Virus record (IMG/VR): IMGVR_UViG_3300022074_000074
Span: 1 to 49,350 of that record
Length of the DNA: 49,350 nt
Strand: one strand, 5' to 3'
Source: a virus
Shown one piece after another: positions 2,500 through 19,407 of the stretch. The notes under the pieces are model-generated. The model was not told the origin of the DNA. It searched no databases and was given only the letters and a program-made list of their open reading frames with translations. The first letter of the stretch is position 1. Each line of letters starts with the position of its first letter. The translations under genes and the position numbers were made by a program.

Positions 2500-3786
2500 T
2501 TAGTTCGCACTCTTTTTGAGGCGTCCAAGTGTTTCCATGTAAGAGGCCATTGTTTTATCAACAGGAGCATCGGAAGTTTCTTCCTCAACATCTGCACCTT
2601 CAACAATGGTTTCAACAGTTTCTTCTTCAGTTTCCTGAGCTTCTTCTGTTAGTGTTTCGCCTTCACCCGTGAAGTAGAACTTTTTAAGGGTTTCCACATT
2701 CTTTGTGAATTCCTCATCAAATTCAACTCCTTCAGCAAGCTTAATAAGCTTAGCAGCTTGAGTTTCGGCTAGATCGGCTGTAGCTTCAGCAAGAATCTTT
2801 TCCTTATTAAGATCGTCAACACGATCTGCAAGGGTATCAGCGATATCTTTAAACTTGGCCAAATCATCTTTAAGTTGAGTGGTTTCTTCTTCAAGTTCTC
2901 CGTAAAGATCAACTTTACTTTCAGGAACCTCAACGTAGTTTTCTTCGAATAGAGTCTTAAGAGACTTCATGAAGTTTTCAGCAATAGAAGTACGAAGGGA
3001 GCTTTCAACAGCAACCTTGTTTTCACCAATCCATTCTTCAACAGCATAAGTCAGATAAGCGTCAACTTGATTAGCGAGTGTCTCGTTAATCGCTTCAACT
3101 TCTTCACTGAGCTTAGCTTCATGTTCAGCTTTAAGTTGTTCTGTAATTTCATCAACCTTAGTACGAACTTCGGCTTCAAAAATCAGAGCAGCTTTTGCTT
3201 TGAACTCAGGTGTTAAACCTTCTTCATCTTCAACAAGACGAGTAAGATCTTCAGATGTAACAACATCTTCTTGTACTCCAGAACCTTCAGCTTCTTCAGA
3301 ATCACTTGCTTTAGCAATTTTTTCTAGTTCTTTTGCATCAAGGCCTTCGCCTTCACCGGATTCAGCATCTTGAGATGTTTCACCCTTCTTCTTTTTCCGG
3401 CGATCTTTAAGGTAAGAATCAGCATCACCACCCTCAGCAGGCTTATTAGCAACTACTGGATCAGGTTGTGCGTGAGCATTTTCAGCCACAGTTTCTTCTT
3501 CTTCTTCTTCCTCTTCTTCGTCTTCTTCGTCTTCGTCTTCATGCGCGCCTTCAGCTTTTTTAGCTTTTTTAGGCTTGGGAGCAGCTTCTTCATCTTCTTC
3601 GTCTTCGTGAGCATCTTCAGCTTTTGCCTTTTTCAGCTCAGATTCTTCAGAAGTAGTTTTGCCACCCTCTGCAATCTCTTCTACGTCTTCAGAGACGGAT
3701 TCCTCCACCTCTCCTTGTTCAAGAGAAAGCAAGTCGGACTCAACGATATCCTCGATAATATCTTCTTGGTTATCTGTATTTTCCAT
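2500..3786 (-). CDS. 22: prohead scaffold (core) protein gp22
   Basis: A 428-residue protein in the gene 22 slot between the prohead protease and the capsid gene. It has the composition expected of a scaffold: very acidic, rich in Glu, Lys and Ala, mostly helix and coiled coil. The N-terminal third has an acidic run of nearly twenty Asp/Glu around residues 85-100 and an imperfect repeat built on K-K-A-K-A-E-(D/G)-A-H-E-D-E, with a third A-E-N-A-H copy. The middle (about 180-370) is long helices, and the C-terminal L-x-R-L-K-K is a plausible capsid-binding tail as in other scaffolds. T4 gp22 is 269 residues, so the acidic N-terminal region is an extension. gp21 should digest it to small peptides during head maturation. 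No clear Shine-Dalgarno precedes the start. Confidence 0.85.
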   Translation of the reverse strand: MENTDNQEDIIEDIVESDLLSLEQGEVEESVSEDVEEIAEGGKTTSEESELKKAKAEDAHEDEEDEEAAPKPKKAKKAEGAHEDEDEEDEEEEEEEEETVAENAHAQPDPVVANKPAEGGDADSYLKDRRKKKKGETSQDAESGEGEGLDAKELEKIAKASDSEEAEGSGVQEDVVTSEDLTRLVEDEEGLTPEFKAKAALIFEAEVRTKVDEITEQLKAEHEAKLSEEVEAINETLANQVDAYLTYAVEEWIGENKVAVESSLRTSIAENFMKSLKTLFEENYVEVPESKVDLYGELEEETTQLKDDLAKFKDIADTLADRVDDLNKEKILAEATADLAETQAAKLIKLAEGVEFDEEFTKNVETLKKFYFTGEGETLTEEAQETEEETVETIVEGADVEEETSDAPVDKTMASYMETLGRLKKSAN

Positions 3787-3888: not shown

Positions 3889-4533
3889 TTACGATATCTT
3901 CTTCAAGAAATCTGTAAACAAGCTTTCTTGTAAAGAAGTTAGTTTGGCGGCAGTAAGCTTTTCCATTTCAGCTTTAGCTTGCTCAGCCGCACGGGAAACA
4001 ATTTCGTTTCCTTCAAAAAAGTATTCAACACCTTCCATAATTCCGTCAACAAAGGCGGAAGGTGCACTAGGATCTTGAACGATATCCACCGTTGCAAGAA
4101 TAAAGTCTTTATTAACAGTTGTTACACCATCTTTATTTGATACCGAACCCATGCCTCGCGAGCTAACACCAAGTTGGCATCCACCCTCAAGAAGTCCTTT
4201 TGTTATATTACCCATTGGAGTATCAAGAATAAGCGCTTTACCCATAACATCAGAATCATTCCAGCTAAGTTCGGTAATGCGGTGAGATACTTTATCAAGA
4301 TTAATTGTAGGTCCTTCGGGATGGTTAAGTTCACCAACCGCACGACCAGTTTTCACATAATCTTTATTATATTTCTCAACTGCAGCTTTTAGTGTGTCTT
4401 TTGGATAAACCCTTTTATTACGATTTAACTTATCGGCTTGCATAAAGATACCTTCAATAAAGGTTTCTTTTTTACCATTCTTTTCCTCGGTAATATATTG
4501 GAGATCTTCTAAATGTTCGGTAATAAGTTTCAT
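3889..4533 (-). CDS. 21: prohead maturation protease gp21
   Basis: A 214-residue serine protease of the T4 gp21 family (MEROPS S80), the usual length. The N-terminal strand (FIEGIFMQADKLNRNKRVYP) is typical of phage prohead proteases. His71 in G-E-L-N-H-P-E and Ser124/125 in G-V-S-S-R-G match the catalytic His and Ser motifs. A V-Q-D-P-S-A-P segment follows the active-site region at about 152-158. The enzyme acts inside the prohead, cutting the scaffold, the core proteins and the N-terminus of gp23, and then itself. It lies between the core protein genes and gene 22, in T4 order. No Shine-Dalgarno is visible, so translation may depend on the close upstream gene, whose stop is 16 bases away. 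Confidence 0.95.
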   Translation of the reverse strand: MKLITEHLEDLQYITEEKNGKKETFIEGIFMQADKLNRNKRVYPKDTLKAAVEKYNKDYVKTGRAVGELNHPEGPTINLDKVSHRITELSWNDSDVMGKALILDTPMGNITKGLLEGGCQLGVSSRGMGSVSNKDGVTTVNKDFILATVDIVQDPSAPSAFVDGIMEGVEYFFEGNEIVSRAAEQAKAEMEKLTAAKLTSLQESLFTDFLKKIS

Positions 4534-4548
4534 AGTGGGTAATTGGGA

Positions 4549-5463
4549 TTAGTCAACTTGAATCATAGCGCCTGCTTTCTCAAGAGCAGAATCTAAAGAA
4601 GCTTTATCATTGGTATCAATGTAAACTTTAGCGCCATCTTTTCTTTTCATAACTCTAACTTTAATTTTTGCCTTTGCGTCATGAATTGATTTTTTTAACT
4701 GTGCTGCCATTTCATTATCTATAGTAATGATGGCTCGAGTATCGCCGTCTCTTTTAATGTCGCCAGCAGCAGCTTTTGGTTTTACATTGGCTTTAGTCCA
4801 TTTTTCAACATCTTTGGCCAAGTCAGACAATTTTATATTGAGCTTCATGCCGGCGATTGTTTTATTTGTTCTTTTATCAACAATTTCATTGCCGTCCATA
4901 TACACTGCAGCTAAAACCTTTTTAGCTTCAGGAGAAACTATTTTTCTAAGTCCTCGAAGTATTTCTTGTGGTTTAAACATCAAGGTCGGGCGTTGTCTAC
5001 TTGAATCAAATTTGTCTTGTTGCTTTTTAACCAAAACATCATTCGGTCTTATTGCTTCAACAATCTCTTCACCATTTGATATTGCTTTAGCCGTTTCTTC
5101 TTCGAGATCGTTAAACAATTCGTAAGCAAGTGTTCCTCTATCAAAAGGATTTCTTCCTCCACGTTCTGCCGCACGGTATTTAGGGTTGGCCGACTTTAAT
5201 TTATCCAGTGCACCACTTTTATCAAGCTGCGGAGCAATCTTATCGTATTCTCTTGGTGTAATTTTTTCGTTTTCTGCTTTATCCAAAAGTTTTTTAAGCA
5301 ACATCTTACCACTAGCAATAGCCGCGGCTTTTAAAATAGAAAGAACTAAAGGATGAATCGCTTCGTCAAGTTCTTCACTTTCTGAACTCTCTAAAGTATT
5401 CCCTTCAAGAATTTTCTTAGCGTCGGCAGCCAGGCTATCGTATGAGTTATTAAAGTCTTTCAT
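4549..5463 (-). CDS. probable prohead core or internal head protein with N-terminal targeting-like peptide
   Basis: A 304-residue protein not recognised by overall sequence. It lies between the prohead core genes and the protease. Its first 22 residues (with S-Y-D-S-L-A, A-K and I-L-E-G-N) closely match the N-terminus of the next gene upstream, although the rest of the two proteins differ. The shared piece ends in I-L-E, a good fit to the gp21 cleavage rule (I/L)-x-E. By analogy with the capsid-targeting peptides of the T4 internal proteins and Alt, this looks like a packaged prohead protein whose leader is removed. The remainder is Lys-rich and mixed helix and strand, with a basic C-terminal half, which fits DNA or core contact. 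No enzymatic motif is seen. Confidence 0.7.
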   Translation of the reverse strand: MKDFNNSYDSLAADAKKILEGNTLESSESEELDEAIHPLVLSILKAAAIASGKMLLKKLLDKAENEKITPREYDKIAPQLDKSGALDKLKSANPKYRAAERGGRNPFDRGTLAYELFNDLEEETAKAISNGEEIVEAIRPNDVLVKKQQDKFDSSRQRPTLMFKPQEILRGLRKIVSPEAKKVLAAVYMDGNEIVDKRTNKTIAGMKLNIKLSDLAKDVEKWTKANVKPKAAAGDIKRDGDTRAIITIDNEMAAQLKKSIHDAKAKIKVRVMKRKDGAKVYIDTNDKASLDSALEKAGAMIQVD

Positions 5464-5469
5464 ATTAAA

Positions 5470-5901
5470 TTACTTAATACCGGCATCTGCATAAGAAAGA
5501 GGAACGGGTTTCCCTTGCCTTTTAGCCTGCTTTTGTGCTCTACGCAATGCTTTTTGTTTTTTGAGAGTTTCTTTTGCTTTAGCCAATTTTTGTCTATCAG
5601 CTATTTTCTTCTCGCCTTTTTCCACCTTTTTTGCGGCACGATCGGCTCGCCCAGAAACAGTGACAAGAGAACCGATCTTCTTTATCTCACTTAATGAATT
5701 AAATTTATCTTCAAGAATCTTTTCGATTTCTTCATCGGACATCTCAGAGATATCAGCACCTTCGTCTTCAAGAATAGAATCAATTGCTTCTTCGTAAATT
5801 TCTTCTTCGGTACTATCAACCGAATTGGTATAATTACCTTCAAGCATTTGTTTTGCTAGAAACGCCAAGCTGTCGTATGATTTTTCGTGGTTTTCTTGCA
5901 T
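5470..5901 (-). CDS. probable prohead core or internal head protein, basic C-terminus
   Basis: A 143-residue protein in the gene 67/68 region. It has three zones: a leader (residues 1-21, with S-Y-D-S-L-A and M-L-E-G-N) shared with the next gene downstream; a strongly acidic middle (about 28-75); and a very basic C-terminal half with repeated K-K/R-K runs and few hydrophobic residues. The shared leader ends in M-L-E before Gly, similar to a gp21 cleavage site. This architecture fits an internal head protein or core protein that is cut on maturation and leaves a basic DNA-binding fragment. The T4 counterparts would be gp67/gp68 or the IP proteins, but no direct homology can be claimed. The purine-rich AAAAGAG before the ATG is at best a weak ribosome site. 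Confidence 0.7.
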   Translation of the reverse strand: MQENHEKSYDSLAFLAKQMLEGNYTNSVDSTEEEIYEEAIDSILEDEGADISEMSDEEIEKILEDKFNSLSEIKKIGSLVTVSGRADRAAKKVEKGEKKIADRQKLAKAKETLKKQKALRRAQKQAKRQGKPVPLSYADAGIK

Positions 5902-5955: not shown

Positions 5956-6393
5956 TTAACGCAACAGCTCTGGAAAAAGATCTTTAATATCTCTATCTTC
6001 CATTCCGTAATCATCTGATTGCAAGAATGCAATGATGTCTTTCTTTTCACCAGCTATATCAGCTGTTGAACTACTAGTTGGTTTGATTTTAAGATTGAAC
6101 TGGCGCTGAGAAACGTTTGTAAAAAAGCGGTCACCGATATAATCCGCATCGACGGTTGTTTTACCCTTACCTGCGCGAAGCTCGGTCAGCAGAGCTGCAA
6201 AATCTACAGAAATGGTAACTTCAGCAGATTCTTCAATCGTTTCTTCCGAATTATAGATCTTTTCAGCAACTTCAATATTTTTAACATCAATTGCGTGCCT
6301 TACTTTATCTTGCATAACTTCAGCGAACGCTTTATTAGTCTCTTCTTTATCACCTAAAGAAAGGGCATTAACGAGTTGTTGAATATTATTCAT
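5956..6393 (-). CDS. prohead core protein, gp67/gp68-like
   Basis: A 145-residue protein directly downstream of the portal gene, the place of genes 67 and 68 in T4. Its N-terminal half has the pattern common to these small core proteins: a short Leu-rich helix, L-G-D-K-E-E-T-N-K-A-F-A-E-V-M-Q-D-K-V, then a helix with N-I-E-V-A-E-K-I-Y, similar to the N-x-F-x-x-I/V-M-x-x-K-V and x-V-A-x-x-L/F motifs of T4 gp67 and gp68. The C-terminal half is a small domain not assigned, which ends in D-I-K-D-L-F-P-E-L-L-R. Its likely role is in the prohead core that sets head shape. A perfect late octamer lies exactly five bases before the ATG. No Shine-Dalgarno is present. Confidence 0.7.
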   Translation of the reverse strand: MNNIQQLVNALSLGDKEETNKAFAEVMQDKVRHAIDVKNIEVAEKIYNSEETIEESAEVTISVDFAALLTELRAGKGKTTVDADYIGDRFFTNVSQRQFNLKIKPTSSSTADIAGEKKDIIAFLQSDDYGMEDRDIKDLFPELLR

Positions 6394-6446: not shown

Positions 6447-7943
6447 CTAAAATCCGTCGTCTTCAGGTGGAGGTTCTTCTTCTATCTCCGCCTGAATTCT
6501 TTCGTAGTCTTCATCAGAGAGATTAAGAACGTTACTTCTTACCCATTTATTTGAATAGTACTTGCCAATGTAAGGTTCCACTTCTCCAAGCATTGAAACA
6601 CGTTCACGAAGAATTTCAAAGTCTTTGAGCTCTGAAAAGAAGTTATCTTCAATATAGTCTACCGAAATTGATTCACGAATTTCAGGCCATTCGGATTCGG
6701 TACAAATGTTTTTTAACAAGCATTGCACCTTGAGCATTTCAATAAAGAGAATAGAGAACTTTTTTCTTAAACGGTTAATGAACTTCTGAAATTTAACTTC
6801 TTCTCTGCTAATCTCACTTGCTCGTCCAACTTGATACTGCGCGCCTTCAACGTCAAGGCGACCAACAGGAACGTTTAGCGAGCGATAAAGTTTCTTTTGA
6901 AAGAAAACAACATCATCAATTTGACTTAAGTTTTCACCACCTGGAAGAGTTGTAATTTCAGTTCCACGTCCACCTTCTCGTCGTGGAAGCCAAAAGTCTT
7001 CCAGCATACTCATTGCTTTACGGTCATCTTTGACTTCACCACTTGTGGCGTCATAAACAAGTTTGTTTCGGTACCTGCTCATAATACCTTGAACATATTG
7101 TTCAGCTTTTCCTTTTGGAAGGTTACCAATGTCAATGTAAAAGATTCGGCGTTCGGGAGCTCGCGAAATACGGTAAATAACTAACGCATCCTCCATGATA
7201 CGAAGTTGGTTTACAAGTTTAACGCTTTTGTGAAGATATGAAACGGCATATTTACCGCCATCGTCAAGGTTGCCGCTTGGAACATAAACAATACTTGTTG
7301 GATCAATTTTAATTGCGTTTGTACTTGATCCTAAACTATCGCTGTAAAGAAAGTATTCTTTTGCAACGTAATGGCTTTTAACACCAGTTTCTGTATCGGT
7401 TTTACTTTTAACCTCTTTAATCTTTTTAATCTTCAGAGGGTCAATCATTCGCACTTCTTGAATACCCCTTTTAATGTTATCAGGATCAATAAGCAGATGA
7501 TAATAAAGCTTACCATCAATATACCATCGGCGAAAAATATCTTGCCCATTAAAGTTAAACGAAAGAAGTTTGCAGATGTTAGCAAATTCTGCTCGAATCA
7601 AATCCTTAACATTATCAGGAATATCGAGATTATCTGTTGAAAGATTAACCGGAACGCTGGAGCTATCTGCTACAATAGCTCCATTAATAATATCTGAAAT
7701 AGCGTTATCGCATTCAGGTTGAACAGCAGCTTGGCGATACTTAATAATAGCGTCTCTTTCGTTACCAACGCTAGCGTCATCTAGATCAAGCACTTGACCA
7801 TAGTATCCGCTTGTACTGTTTCCAGAAATGACCTGACTTCCGTCGGTTTCCACGGGAGGAGCAAACGATGGTAAAATCTTTTCCTCCTTTTCGTTATTTT
7901 CGTCTTTAATCCTTCGTGAAATGTCAAGTCCAAATATCTTCAT
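6447..7943 (-). CDS. 20: portal vertex protein gp20
   Basis: A 498-residue portal protein of the T4 gp20 family (T4 is 524). Recognisable segments are the N-terminal R-Q-A-A-V-Q-P-E-C-D-N-A-I-S-D-I-I-N motif near 68-85, D-P-L-K-I-K-K-I, the stretch around A-P-E-R-R-I-F-Y-I-D-I-G-N-L-P-K-G-K-A, then an R-N-K-L-V-Y-D motif, and a W-L-P-R-R-E-G-G-R-G-T-E-I-x-T-L-P-G-G segment near 330. The dodecameric portal starts prohead assembly, forms the DNA channel for the gp16/gp17 packaging motor, and later joins the neck. A TATATATA box lies seven bases before the ATG, and a hairpin lies between it and the gp19 stop, so it may be a separate late unit. Confidence 0.97.
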   Translation of the reverse strand: MKIFGLDISRRIKDENNEKEEKILPSFAPPVETDGSQVISGNSTSGYYGQVLDLDDASVGNERDAIIKYRQAAVQPECDNAISDIINGAIVADSSSVPVNLSTDNLDIPDNVKDLIRAEFANICKLLSFNFNGQDIFRRWYIDGKLYYHLLIDPDNIKRGIQEVRMIDPLKIKKIKEVKSKTDTETGVKSHYVAKEYFLYSDSLGSSTNAIKIDPTSIVYVPSGNLDDGGKYAVSYLHKSVKLVNQLRIMEDALVIYRISRAPERRIFYIDIGNLPKGKAEQYVQGIMSRYRNKLVYDATSGEVKDDRKAMSMLEDFWLPRREGGRGTEITTLPGGENLSQIDDVVFFQKKLYRSLNVPVGRLDVEGAQYQVGRASEISREEVKFQKFINRLRKKFSILFIEMLKVQCLLKNICTESEWPEIRESISVDYIEDNFFSELKDFEILRERVSMLGEVEPYIGKYYSNKWVRSNVLNLSDEDYERIQAEIEEEPPPEDDGF

Positions 7944-12725: not shown

Positions 12726-13505
12726 TTATGTACTTGGAGAATCCCACACATTTTCTGGATCAGGCGGCTCGCCAATTTCGACTACAACTGTGTGTGAGTC
12801 TTCTGTACCGGTTTGAAATTTTGTTCTAACTCTTACACCCGCGTCTGTATACCTTCCCGAAGTATCAAAGTCATTAAAGAAAGTATCTACCGATTTGATA
12901 AGACTCTTGGGCCCTGGATTACTTATAAACTTAGTCTTAGCATTAAAGGTTAGTGTGTAAATAATCAAACGACGAGAAGATTCAAAATCTCCTTCATATC
13001 CATCTTCGCTGCTTACATCTGTTAAAGTTACAGGAACATCGGTTATACTTTCTGGACCTTCTAGTTCCTTAACGCTTAAAGTATAATTTGGATTAAAGTG
13101 AGGAATTATTTGTTCCAAAATTTGTAATGCTTCATCCTGTCCTCTTGACATAATATTCAGAGAAAAGATAATATTATAAGGAGCATTCTGATTTACTTTA
13201 ACGCGGTTACCTTCACTATCGGTCTGAACATTTCTATTCATACGATTTAATTTGGTGGCGGTATCGTATGAAAGTCCAGTCATCTCAAAGCTCATACGAG
13301 GAAGCTGTAATGCAACACTATTTTCTATACCAACTTTAATACGGGCAAGAAACTTTTCTTTTGGTGCATAAGAAAGAGGAACGCGTTTAACACCTGTTAT
13401 CTTTCCTCCAACAACTTGTGCTATTTCAATATCGTTGAATAGTTGACCAAATATTGACACCATTTTCTTAACTGTGCCATTATAAAAATACGAGTGACCA
13501 AGCAT
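12726..13505 (-). CDS. 15: tail sheath stabiliser / completion protein gp15, copy A
   Basis: A 259-residue member of the T4 gp15 family (T4 is 272). Family landmarks: N-terminal Y-F-Y-N-G-T-V-K-K-M-V-S-I-F-G-x-L-F-N-D-I, the R-V-P-L-S-Y-A-P-K-E-K-F segment, the I-M-S-R-G-Q-D-E-A-L-Q-I-L-E-Q-I-I-P-H-F-N-P region, and a D-T-F-F-N-D-F motif near the C-terminus. gp15 caps the finished tail and joins it to the gp13/gp14 neck. The start is set at the ATG one base past the stop of copy B, because M-L-G-H-S-Y-F-Y-N aligns with M-L-S-N-P-Y-F-Y-N of that copy; an ATG eight codons upstream would overlap it. About two thirds of residues are identical with copy B, so the pair is a tandem duplication. It has an extra C-terminal tail of about 20 residues ending near D-P-E-N-V-W-D-S-P. 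Confidence 0.9.
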   Translation of the reverse strand: MLGHSYFYNGTVKKMVSIFGQLFNDIEIAQVVGGKITGVKRVPLSYAPKEKFLARIKVGIENSVALQLPRMSFEMTGLSYDTATKLNRMNRNVQTDSEGNRVKVNQNAPYNIIFSLNIMSRGQDEALQILEQIIPHFNPNYTLSVKELEGPESITDVPVTLTDVSSEDGYEGDFESSRRLIIYTLTFNAKTKFISNPGPKSLIKSVDTFFNDFDTSGRYTDAGVRVRTKFQTGTEDSHTVVVEIGEPPDPENVWDSPST

Positions 13506-13506
13506 G

Positions 13507-14226
13507 TTATGAATCAGGTTTAGTTCCAATTACGGTAGTTGTTTCGGTAACTCTTACGCCAGCGTCTACATACGCGCCATTGGTGTCGAAGTCGTGAAAG
13601 AAAGTATCGACAGTTTCTATAAGGCCAACAGTTGAAGGAAAAAACGAAAATTTTGTCTTAAGATTAAATGATAAAGTGTATATAAGCAGTCTTCTAGAAG
13701 ACTCAAAGTCTCCTTCGTATCCATCTTCAAAGTTAACACCTTCAAGAGTGATAGGTATATCAGTTTTACTTTCAGGTCCTTCAAGACCTTTAACAGTAAC
13801 GGTGTAATTTGGATTAAAGTGAGGAATTATTTGTTCAAGTATTTGCAGCGCTTCATCTTGTCCTCTTGACATTATATTTAAATCAAAAGATAATGTATAA
13901 GGAGCATTTTGCCAAACTTTAACTTTATTTCCTTCATCGTTCGTTTGAACTGTTCTATTTAAACGATTTAGCTTAACCTCAGCGTCGTATGAAAGTCCTG
14001 TCATTTCAAAGCTCATGCGAGGCAGCTTTAAACCAATATCGTTTTCCACATCAGCTTCAATGCGAGCAAGGTACTTTTCTTTTGGTGCATAAGCAAGAGA
14101 AACGCGTTGAACCCCAACCATTTTCCCTGCGGAGATATTGGCTATCTCAATGTCATTAAAGAGAGTACCAAAAACCGCCACAGTCTTTTTAAGCGTTTCA
14201 TTATAAAAATATGGATTACTTAGCAT
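13507..14226 (-). CDS. 15: tail sheath stabiliser / completion protein gp15, copy B
   Basis: A 239-residue member of the gp15 family, upstream of copy A in the transcript and sharing the same landmarks (Y-F-Y-N-E-T-L-K-K-T-V-A-V-F-G-T-L-F-N-D-I, A-Y-A-P-K-E-K-Y, the identical I-M-S-R-G-Q-D-E-A-L-Q block and D-T-F-F-H-D-F). Even the DNA of the central block is nearly the same in both copies. T4 has only one gp15. The pair could form a mixed hexamer, or one copy could have taken a new role at a second ring. The two genes are almost touching, so translation is probably coupled. Which copy keeps the T4 role cannot be told from sequence. Confidence 0.9.
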   Translation of the reverse strand: MLSNPYFYNETLKKTVAVFGTLFNDIEIANISAGKMVGVQRVSLAYAPKEKYLARIEADVENDIGLKLPRMSFEMTGLSYDAEVKLNRLNRTVQTNDEGNKVKVWQNAPYTLSFDLNIMSRGQDEALQILEQIIPHFNPNYTVTVKGLEGPESKTDIPITLEGVNFEDGYEGDFESSRRLLIYTLSFNLKTKFSFFPSTVGLIETVDTFFHDFDTNGAYVDAGVRVTETTTVIGTKPDS

Positions 14227-16536: not shown

Positions 16537-17307
16537 TTAAATATAGTTTTTTAGCAAATTATTTGCCTTTGTATAAACCCTTGGACACTTTACATTATCT
16601 TTACCCATGATTGTTTCTAAAATTGCAGATGCGGCAATAATTACAGAAAGTCTGTCAACAAGTACTATTTCATATTCATGAATTGCAGATTCATAAATCT
16701 TTTTTGAATATTCTGCAGATTGCCCTGTCACATAACATGCCCCCAATATATTTACTATTGCTGCAGGCCACAATTTAATATCGGCAAAAGAATGTATCTT
16801 ATTAAAAATTTTAAAAGCAGCTTCAGCGTCTCCTTCTTTTATATAACAATGAGCTAGTGCAGTCCAAATAGAAGTGATCCAACGATAAGTAAATTTACCC
16901 CAATAAGGATCATTAAATTCTTTGAAACTTTGCAGGTCTTTATAAAGACTTTCCAACTCATCGATAGATCCCATGTCATCGTAAATGTAACGATAAGCAA
17001 GAGTGCAAAAAGACTGACTTACAACTTCAAATTTATCGGGATAGATTCGAGCTAAAAGAAGAGCTCTACATCTTTGGTACCCGGCCGAATCGTCGTTTCT
17101 ACCTTTAAAGTTTCTTACAAACTTTTTAGGGTTATAACGAAGGTCGTCTAACATTTGGTTAAATTCATCAAGATCCAATCCCGGAATAATTAAATCGCTG
17201 TCTGGAAGAGATGAATATTCGAATGAAAGCTGAGTGCCCGAATAGATTATAAAAACCTTATTTTCTTTCCAAGAAATATTAGGGACTTTCGTTTCCGTCT
17301 TTGTCAT
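16537..17307 (-). CDS. helical-repeat (TPR-like) hypothetical protein
   Basis: A 256-residue protein with no recognised family. After an N-terminal strand-rich section it is mainly helix. Helix pairs around A-H-C-Y-I-K-E-G-D-A-E-A-A-F-K-I-F-N-K and N-I-L-G-A-C-Y-V-T-G-Q-S-A-E-Y-S-K-K look like tetratricopeptide repeats (the G-x-x-x-x-A spacing). The start is placed at an ATG (M-T-K-T-E-T-K) inside the end of the sulfotransferase gene, a 29-base overlap; the frame stays open further upstream into that gene. It is the last gene of the glycosyltransferase-sulfotransferase cassette. A role as a partner of those enzymes is only inferred from position. Confidence 0.6.
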   Translation of the reverse strand: MTKTETKVPNISWKENKVFIIYSGTQLSFEYSSLPDSDLIIPGLDLDEFNQMLDDLRYNPKKFVRNFKGRNDDSAGYQRCRALLLARIYPDKFEVVSQSFCTLAYRYIYDDMGSIDELESLYKDLQSFKEFNDPYWGKFTYRWITSIWTALAHCYIKEGDAEAAFKIFNKIHSFADIKLWPAAIVNILGACYVTGQSAEYSKKIYESAIHEYEIVLVDRLSVIIAASAILETIMGKDNVKCPRVYTKANNLLKNYI

Positions 17308-18274
17308 TGGGTTTCTTTGAAAGTTCTTTAACTTTATCTTCAAGCTGGTCAATACGCCCCATAGCTTCAATAGAGAAGATGATTGCCTGATCTAACAAAC
17401 GATTGTAATCATCACTTGTTAGTGTTCTTTCTTGCGGAGTAGCAGGATCTTTAAACAATCGACCGTCTGGATTGCTCAATAATACCTTCATTTTTTGTTT
17501 TATATTGGGTAGCTTAAAAAACTTTTTAGCATATTCATTAATACCACCATTCCTAAAATAGTTTCTATAAAGGTCAAACTTCTTCGGCGAAACAGGTTCT
17601 GTATAAGTGTTATTATAGATCGCTCTAGATAAAACTTCAGCAGACGTTAAAGTTTCATAAGCCCTAACGCGAGGAAGGTCAATACCAACAGCTTCGCTAA
17701 AATCGTCAATAACGTCTTCACCTTCTTGATAAATTCTAATTTTAGCAATATCTTTCCAATTTAAATAACTTCTATAAACACCCCGCCCCCAACATTGAAA
17801 CCAACGATCAAAGGCAGGTAAAATATGTCCATTCCATTTACCAACCCTTGGTCCGCGGAGAGGTTTACCAGGAAGAACTTTATGAACAAGGCCCCATTGG
17901 TCCCATGCAGATTTTAACCATTTGCCTGGTTCTCTTATGTAAATTATAATATTAACTTCAAGATCATCATCCCATTCAACAAGTTCTTTAAACAATTCCA
18001 ACATATGATCATTACTTGATATGGCTTCATTAGACCAAATAACGTGATCACATCCAGTCTTTTTTGAGTGAGCAATAATAGTATCATACAGCGCTTTGGT
18101 CTTATCAACTGTGTGGTGAATACTAAGCCACTTGTGATCAATTTTATCGCCGTTTACAAGATCTGGCCAAGCCCAGTTATCTGGCGTATTTAAAGCGCCC
18201 TTGTACTGGTGAAGACTTTTTTGAATTGCTGATGTTCCTGTTTTACCTAAACCAATATGTGCTGTAAACTTCAT
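17279..18274 (-). CDS. PAPS-dependent sulfotransferase-like protein
   Basis: A 331-residue protein with the two hallmarks of cytosolic/Golgi-type sulfotransferases. The 5'-phosphosulfate loop is at the N-terminus (H-I-G-L-G-K-T-G-T-S-A-I-Q, residues 6-18), and the 3'-phosphate motif is I-Y-I-R-E-P-G-K-W-L-K-S-A-W with Arg114 and Ser122. Such enzymes move sulfate from PAPS to a hydroxyl or amine of a sugar, lipid or protein. The C-terminal ~40 residues (I-D-Q-L-E-D-K-V-K-E-L-S-K) form a short coiled coil. Its ATG overlaps the stop of the glycosyltransferase by four bases, so the pair is translationally coupled and probably acts in one pathway, for instance building a sulfated glycan. The acceptor is unknown. 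Confidence 0.85.
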   Translation of the reverse strand: MKFTAHIGLGKTGTSAIQKSLHQYKGALNTPDNWAWPDLVNGDKIDHKWLSIHHTVDKTKALYDTIIAHSKKTGCDHVIWSNEAISSNDHMLELFKELVEWDDDLEVNIIIYIREPGKWLKSAWDQWGLVHKVLPGKPLRGPRVGKWNGHILPAFDRWFQCWGRGVYRSYLNWKDIAKIRIYQEGEDVIDDFSEAVGIDLPRVRAYETLTSAEVLSRAIYNNTYTEPVSPKKFDLYRNYFRNGGINEYAKKFFKLPNIKQKMKVLLSNPDGRLFKDPATPQERTLTSDDYNRLLDQAIIFSIEAMGRIDQLEDKVKELSKKPNDKDGNESP

Positions 18275-19407
18275 CCAATTAACCTTTCTACCTTTTTCTC
18301 CCAGACACTCTTAGAAAACTTTTCATTTACTATTTTTCTAGCAGCGTGGATTTCTGCTCTACTTTGTCCCGTAAAGTGTAGAAACAGAAGCTTGGCGTAT
18401 TCTTTGGCTTCATCTTTTATTTCGAAGTCAATTAAATAGTTTGAAGGAACAAGCTCATTCACCGCCCCAACATTGCTAACGGCCATTGGAACTGACCATT
18501 GCATTGCTTCAAAATATGTAAGAGGTATGCCCTCGTCAACCGAAGGACAAACAAGCGCACTAGCTTGTTTATAATACTCTTGCATTTGATTATAATCAAT
18601 ACCTTTTTCAAATTCTATCCAATGACTAGCTTTTAGTTCTGCCGCGCGTTTTTTAATGGCTGTATAAAGTTCTCCGTCGCCAACAAACTTAAAAACAGGC
18701 ATATAAGCAGCTGGTAAAAGTTTTGCTAATTCTGCGGCAATATCACAAACAAACTCGGGGCGTTTTTGAAAGTGAAAGCGAAAAGGACATAATACGTACC
18801 TGGGATCTTTATCTGTTTTCCTTAAAGGCCAAGTCTTTTCTATTTCAGAAAAACCAAACCAATACAGGGTTTTAATTATTTTTTTATCTACGCCTTTTTC
18901 ACCAAGCTCTCCCTTAAGCTTATCCGAAACAGTTAGTACCAAATCAAAAGGGGTTCCTTTTTGAAGGCTTTTTTCAAAGTCCCAAGGTTCCTTGAGAATC
19001 ATATGAAACAAAGAAATCAACTTTGTATTCGGCGCAGCTTCTTTGATTGACCAAGCTTGATCGTAAGCTTCGTGTGAATTGTTTACAACCGTATAAATAG
19101 GCTGTAAATTCTTGACTATCTCTACAGTATCATTATTACAAAAAACATCATCCGCTAAGTCTATAAATGCAGACTCTCTCCGGCTATCTTTATGCGGCAT
19201 GGTCCGCGTTGATATAACAACAATTCTGAATCCCCTACTTTTGTAATGCGCCATTAAATCCAAGCCGCATCTATCCGCTCCTCCGAGCGACATCCAAGGG
19301 ATGATAAGACAAAATACAGGCTTTTTCTCAACGGTATCTTCCGCTGACTTTAGAATAGCGCTACAGGAGTTTTGCAAACGTTTATTCTTTCGTGATCTCC
19401 TGGGCAT
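18271..19407 (-). CDS. glycosyltransferase family 4 (GT-B fold)
   Basis: A 378-residue retaining GT-B glycosyltransferase. The N-terminal Rossmann domain starts F-C-L-I-I-P-W-M-S-L-G-G-A-D-R (residues 32-46), a typical GT4 acceptor-side loop. The C-terminal domain carries P-V-F-K-F-V-G-D-G-E near 237-246 and the E-x7-E motif with Glu292 and Glu300 (D-E-G-I-P-L-T-Y-F-E-A-M), followed by V-G-A-V-N-E-L-V. It would transfer a sugar from a nucleotide-sugar donor. The basic N-terminal ~20 residues are an extension. It lies between the collagen-like fibre gene and a sulfotransferase, so modification of a virion fibre or of the host surface are the two main hypotheses. Donor and acceptor cannot be read from sequence. 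Confidence 0.92.
   Translation of the reverse strand: MPRRSRKNKRLQNSCSAILKSAEDTVEKKPVFCLIIPWMSLGGADRCGLDLMAHYKSRGFRIVVISTRTMPHKDSRRESAFIDLADDVFCNNDTVEIVKNLQPIYTVVNNSHEAYDQAWSIKEAAPNTKLISLFHMILKEPWDFEKSLQKGTPFDLVLTVSDKLKGELGEKGVDKKIIKTLYWFGFSEIEKTWPLRKTDKDPRYVLCPFRFHFQKRPEFVCDIAAELAKLLPAAYMPVFKFVGDGELYTAIKKRAAELKASHWIEFEKGIDYNQMQEYYKQASALVCPSVDEGIPLTYFEAMQWSVPMAVSNVGAVNELVPSNYLIDFEIKDEAKEYAKLLFLHFTGQSRAEIHAARKIVNEKFSKSVWEKKVERLIG

Follow-up and report, generated by a model that had tools for sequence, protein, structure and literature searches.

A putative second capsid-targeting leader on modular core proteins of a T4-like marine phage lineage

Background

The capsid-targeting sequences (CTSs) of phage T4 are propeptides of 10-19 residues that target internal proteins to the scaffold core and are then removed, and the gp21 protease of this phage cuts after L/I-X-E (PMC9026906). 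The internal proteins themselves form a diverse set in which only the CTS is conserved, and one of them, IPI, is injected and inhibits a host restriction enzyme (PMC3012670). In phage SPN3US, gp53 and gp54 display identical 15-residue N-termini together with prohead-protease sites, and were compared to CTSs by the authors of that study (PMC5694885). In the literature searched, we found no report of a second capsid-targeting leader of the kind proposed here.

The window, namely the whole stretch of DNA analyzed, is a viral fragment of 49,350 bases that carries a cluster of T4-type genes for head and tail, and its source is a T4-like marine phage group, i.e. a virus of bacteria. Among its other genes, the neighboring ORFs 12726-13529 and 13507-14226 are clearly paralogous, with a similar pair in a relative (contig G001; 67-77% identity to those of the window), and a stretch of the tail genes (16537-19407) holds ORFs that by eye resemble a sulfotransferase and a glycosyltransferase, with G001 counterparts that are 55-86% identical.

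Results and discussion

Gene order and the shared N-terminal leader

The order of the head genes on the minus strand is gp20, three ORFs encoding proteins of 145, 143 and 304 residues, gp21, gp22 and gp23; in T4 the interval between genes 20 and 21 is occupied by gp67 and gp68. The upstream border of this core-protein cluster is the gp20 portal gene (6447-7943, minus strand; phrog_213, E=1.1e-185), and on its other side lie, likewise on the minus strand, the gp21 prohead protease of the Peptidase_S77 family, which is the presumed cutter (3889-4533; Pfam PF03420, E=2e-40; phrog_207, E=1.4e-75), the gp22 scaffold, the presumed core partner (2500-3786; PF25623, E=1.9e-56), and the gp23 major capsid protein (1191-2459). 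The 145-aa protein (5956-6393, minus strand) consists of a gp67-like N-terminal leader of about 50 aa and a module, with IEE55↓S as the junction. It belongs with the gp67 prohead core family both by its match to phrog_1064 ("prohead", E=8.5e-4) and by its position after gene 20; T4 gp67 itself matches phrog_1064 at 1.7e-30, and a gene of phage C48C1 does so with an hhalign probability of 95%. The 143- and 304-aa proteins show no match to phrog_1064.

The latter two proteins are encoded by adjacent genes (5470-5901 and 4549-5463, respectively, both on the minus strand), and have in common the motif S-Y-D-S-L-A-x-x-A-K-x-[IM]-L-E-G-N, which occupies residues 8-23 of the 143-aa protein, starting SYDSLAFLAKQMLEGN, and residues 7-22 of the 304-aa protein, starting SYDSLAADAKKILEGN. 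The leaders, as delimited by alignment and HMM, comprise residues 1-21 of the former (MQENHEKSYDSLAFLAKQMLE↓G; 5839-5901, minus strand; HMM E=5e-14) and residues 1-20 of the latter (MKDFNNSYDSLAADAKKILE↓G; 5404-5463, minus strand). In the 143-aa protein the leader is followed by an acidic stretch with many [LI]xE sites and a basic C-terminal half, and in the 304-aa protein by a helical module and a C-terminal domain, with no convincing similarity between the two bodies. The 16-residue blocks are identical at 12/16 positions in protein and 34/48 in DNA, and the BLOSUM62 score of the two N-termini, 61, lies above those of all 5000 shuffles (maximum 40), so that the sequence-only reading, which had these genes share an N-terminal motif and then diverge, is borne out for two ORFs that both exist. 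The window has 39 ORFs with 90 aa or more, and when all their N-termini are compared in pairs, this pair ranks second (top pair 106, next below 37). The same reading had called for a genome search for further proteins with this leader, which came back empty for this record: a leader HMM yields exactly two matches in the whole record (E 5e-16 and 5e-14), namely the 143- and 304-aa proteins, and neither a motif search of the ORFs nor the HMM reveals a third copy in the window.

Given that the conserved block invariably lies at the 5' end of its gene's coding sequence, it might act at the RNA level, in translation start, coupling or mRNA structure, with the peptide being incidental. However, 6 of the 12 identical residues are encoded by different codons in the two window copies, and it is therefore the peptide rather than the RNA that is conserved, which leaves an RNA-level role barely plausible.

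In PHROG and Pfam, the 304-aa protein could not be assigned to any family and the 143-aa protein showed no match above chance level, and among annotated phages the former has no relatives and the latter only chance matches. An identification of the 143-aa body with T4 gp68 (phrog_1049) found no support, with no PHROG match and an hhalign probability of 0.1%. The AlphaFold models of the 304-aa and 145-aa proteins, built from shallow alignments, are poor (mean pLDDT 52 and 49, respectively). In the former, the leader is predicted as a helix at residues 4-20 with a pLDDT of only 33-35, and residues 233-302 are modeled as a beta-beta-alpha-beta-beta-alpha domain with block-wise pLDDT values of about 73-83. 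Neither this small C-terminal alpha/beta domain nor the rest of the 304-aa model gave a significant fold match.

Distribution of the leader and swapping of cargo modules

Relatives of gp21 were gathered from viral contigs, and 2.9 million viral contigs were scanned with degenerate DNA patterns of the leader. Altogether, 25 distinct proteins bear the SYDSLA leader, in front of at least nine kinds of body. The matches of the DNA-pattern scan are restricted almost entirely to the lineage of the window; their sole stray, in L134, was discarded as an internal chance match. All the other matches lie either between genes 20 and 21, with a gp21 that is about 90% or more identical where present, or in a second locus (see below). 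The leader was not found in larger relatives with a 73% identical gp21 (contigs of 170 kb and 107 kb; best HMM matches 13 bits or none), nor between genes 20 and 21 of phage C48C1, whose gp21 is the most similar (56% identity) among the isolates of the phage collection. BLAST alignments between otherwise unrelated leader proteins end at residue 19-24, and the length of the leader was set at 19-24 residues for this reason.

In all complete gene 20-21 intervals read in the lineage (window/L003, L006, L007, L009, L011, L016, L017, L018, L020, L025, L026 and L133), the first gene encodes a protein with the gp67-like leader and is followed by one to three genes whose products have the SYDSLA leader, irrespective of the body. 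In L133, one leader protein (4396-5408) is apparently split into two ORFs (4396-4647 and 4659-5408), possibly by a frameshift or a sequencing error. Four modules, namely VTIS, AIDSI, ALVD and KIEVP, occur on both types of leader. The clearest swap involves VTIS, which makes up residues 59-144 of the 145-aa protein (5962-6219, minus strand): the body that stands behind the gp67-like leader in the window is found behind the SYDSLA leader in L007, L011, L020 and L038. Conversely, the body of the 143-aa protein, which has the SYDSLA leader in the window, follows the gp67-like leader in L007, L011, L016, L018 and L020. Judged from these sequences, the SYDSLA leader is a transferable N-terminal module, the same bodies also occurring behind the gp67-like leader.

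A second locus with the leader

In L107, L114 and L116, the SYDSLA leader is directly followed by a cupredoxin-like domain, recognized by eye from the sequence (L107:1209-2015; L114:5330-6436; L116:469-1404). This region otherwise matches tail-connector or fibre-like cyanophage proteins (phrog_677), and the leader-bearing version is a possible packaged metal-binding protein. The neighboring genes of this locus start with MKRFKEFLSEA, MKSFKTYITEA, MKSFKQFKEE and MKTLKEILNES, as compared to MKTYQEFIAEA in T4 IPII and IPIII and MKTFKEF in IPI, and several of these starts are found by a small HMM made only from the starts of T4 and phage C48C1. The genes around the cupredoxin-like leader protein have capsid-targeting starts of the T4 type (MKSFKxYIxEA). 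The proposal in the sequence-only reading that the leader could identify other packaged proteins is supported by this locus, where it is carried by one more protein that is likely packaged, at another place in a relative's genome.

The 32 kb contig of L114 and the 72 kb contig of L007 derive from different samples (contigs G001 and G011) and share an overlap of 13,333 bp with a nucleotide identity of 99.7%. One phage population was therefore sampled twice, and both the second locus and the gene 20-21 locus belong to it. The L007 contig is in turn syntenic with the window, with identities of 94% for gp21, 89% for gp20 and 94% for the terminase, and the distance between the two leader loci can be estimated from contig coordinates as about 43 kb. 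The loci also have cargo in common: the FSQV (74% identity, E=2e-30) and NYDRD (55%, E=4e-20) modules of the gene 20-21 SYDSLA proteins recur in a 513-aa protein of the second locus which begins MKSLKDILNGN.

These observations bear on the simplest account of the two window genes, namely that they are old paralogues from a tandem duplication, which kept their N-terminus for ordinary reasons without any targeting role. Adjacency of the genes, and the leader being their only clearly shared part in the window, are in keeping with such an origin. However, leader swapping, as read from the sequences, already disfavors it, with homologous bodies behind different leaders, non-homologous bodies behind the same leader and junctions at residue 19-24; with the distant leader copy, placed in a relative's genome by contig overlap, also speaking against it, duplication is quite improbable.

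Two other genes of the second locus deserve mention. The first (L114:6452-7867) encodes a RimK-type ATP-grasp ligase (PF08443, E=3e-33) fused to a Zn_protease domain (PF05618, E=5e-11); it begins with MESFKTY, lies within the operon of T4-CTS-type genes, and is a possible packaged protein-modifying enzyme. The second (L114:1574-2719) contains a duplicated FEFNG module, which is also found in a protein with the gp67-like leader in more distant relatives (L028:4382-4999).

Prohead protease sites at module junctions

Strict [LI]xE↓[ASG] sites are present at 27 of 48 unique module junctions as against a shuffle mean of 4.6 (maximum 13 in 2000). The module borders were set by eye before counting, however, and homologous copies of a junction enter the count repeatedly, so that the shuffle comparison treats the junctions as more independent than they are; the numbers of these site tests therefore give the direction and size of the enrichment rather than an exact probability. 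A junction was here taken as the unique 15-residue stretch before a module, and the shuffles preserved composition (acidic linkers thus keep theirs). Outside modules as a whole, 53 such sites were observed as against 11.7 expected. The sites thus fall at positions where processing of a substrate would take place, with no comparable enrichment in module interiors (6 observed versus 8.0 expected) or in nineteen control proteins of the window, namely portal, terminase and tail proteins (21 versus 22.0).

The 304-aa protein illustrates this arrangement, with all four of its [LI]xE sites outside its one recurrent module (residues 37-120; 5104-5355, minus strand): E20 marks the end of the leader, E34 (LDE34↓A) and E122 (LEE122↓E) the edges of the module, and E136 (IVE136↓A) falls in the linker behind it, immediately before the second part of the protein (residues 137-304; 4552-5055, minus strand). 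The 145-aa protein has E55 where leader and body meet and E71 inside the module.

At the end of the leader, an [LI]xE site is found at residue 20/21 in 9 of 16 variants; in another 3/16 the only site is LAE13↓A inside the leader, and 4/16 have none. This limited conservation, together with the failure of the sequence test, is why the leader was not filed as a T4 CTS: a relationship as a CTS variant was rejected because the cross-HMM scores in either direction did not exceed about 8 bits, even though several SYDSLA variants begin with MKSF, MKTF or MKDF, as CTSs do. The earlier claim that both leader ends in the window match the gp21 cleavage rule, with cuts after Glu20 and Glu21 to be checked, stands under the published T4 rule for ILE20↓G of the 304-aa protein, a strict L/I-X-E site, and does not strictly hold for MLE21↓G of the 143-aa protein, which has Met at P3 and is one of the 7/16 variants that lack a leader-end site. 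The conserved gp21 sites lie mainly at junctions of cargo modules, with a cut at the leader end not being a general feature.

The missing leader-end site in these variants would also be expected if the leader were a permanent scaffold-building or anchoring segment, comparable to gp67 and gp68, and the proteins were degraded or expelled scaffold rather than packaged cargo. The position between gp20 and gp21, as in T4 67/68, the exchange of bodies with the gp67-like leader, and the several [LI]xE sites in the acidic half of the 143-aa protein, reminiscent of T4 core proteins that are fragmented by cleavage, all point in the same direction. This alternative sits poorly, however, with the several modules that are themselves site-free and bounded by sites, and with the occurrence of the leader on the cupredoxin-like protein of the second locus, among T4-type CTS genes and not scaffold genes; on balance, we regard it as unlikely.

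Proposed function and its implications

The preferred reading, to which we give a probability of roughly 70%, is that of a second capsid-targeting leader on modular precursors which gp21 dices inside the prohead. Under this proposal, the SYDSLA block would be a core-association leader of about 20 residues, probably forming a short helix as in the low-confidence model, that draws any body fused to it into the prohead scaffold core. The cargo would consist of interchangeable modules linked by acidic linkers, and after closure of the prohead gp21 would cut the linkers at their [LI]-x-E sites and, in some versions, would also cut at the leader end. The modules would thereby be freed as separate products, some of which may stay in the mature head and thus be present in the virion, with others leaving as scaffold fragments. 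The core of the original idea, that a different leader does the job of the T4 leader, is therefore supported by inference from the transferable nature of the module, the neighboring gp21 gene and the shared cargo pool; the part of it that required a cut at the leader end does not hold in general.

A broader version, for which we see about even odds, is that at least three interchangeable leaders, namely the gp67-like, SYDSLA and T4-type CTS versions, serve a single pool of cargo in polyproteins that are diced after entry, thereby constituting a recombining, domain-by-domain delivery system. By analogy with the T4 internal proteins, including the injected IPI, the shuffled modules may be delivered proteins; given that T4-type internal proteins include an injected anti-restriction factor, host take-over and counter-defence are candidate roles for these modules. 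If the preferred reading is correct, the leader would provide a sequence tag for spotting packaged proteins in uncultured marine T4-like phages, capsid targeting would use more than one leader within a single phage, and internal head proteins could be built as modular polyproteins whose parts are freed by the prohead protease.

Comparison with known systems

The SYDSLA proteins resemble SPN3US gp53 and gp54 in that an N-terminus is common to two diverged head proteins; the latter differ in being paralogues with 34% identity over their whole length, in belonging to a giant phage, and in their A-X-E cleavage motif. T4 gp68 is comparable to the 143-aa protein in its place between 67 and 21 and in a body that is likewise acidic and then basic, but the two bodies have no detectable homology. 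The N-terminus of the neighboring 145-aa protein is like that of T4 gp67 (PIP), and the cargo modules behind it also occur behind the SYDSLA leader; in contrast, the SYDSLA leader itself has no match to gp67, and the gp67-like segment heads different bodies, whereas T4 gp67 stands alone. The closest parallel is with the T4 CTS of IPI, IPII, IPIII and Alt, which is also a short N-terminal segment common to otherwise unrelated, variable proteins, with a gp21-type L/I-X-E site close by and, presumably, affinity for the scaffold core. Unlike the T4 CTS (MKTYQEFIAE↓A), the SYDSLAxxAKxIL sequence is different and about twice as long, its genes lie between genes 20 and 21, its cargo is multi-modular with sites at the junctions, and its leader-end site is not conserved. 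The lineage of the window has T4-type CTS proteins besides the SYDSLA ones, at its second locus.
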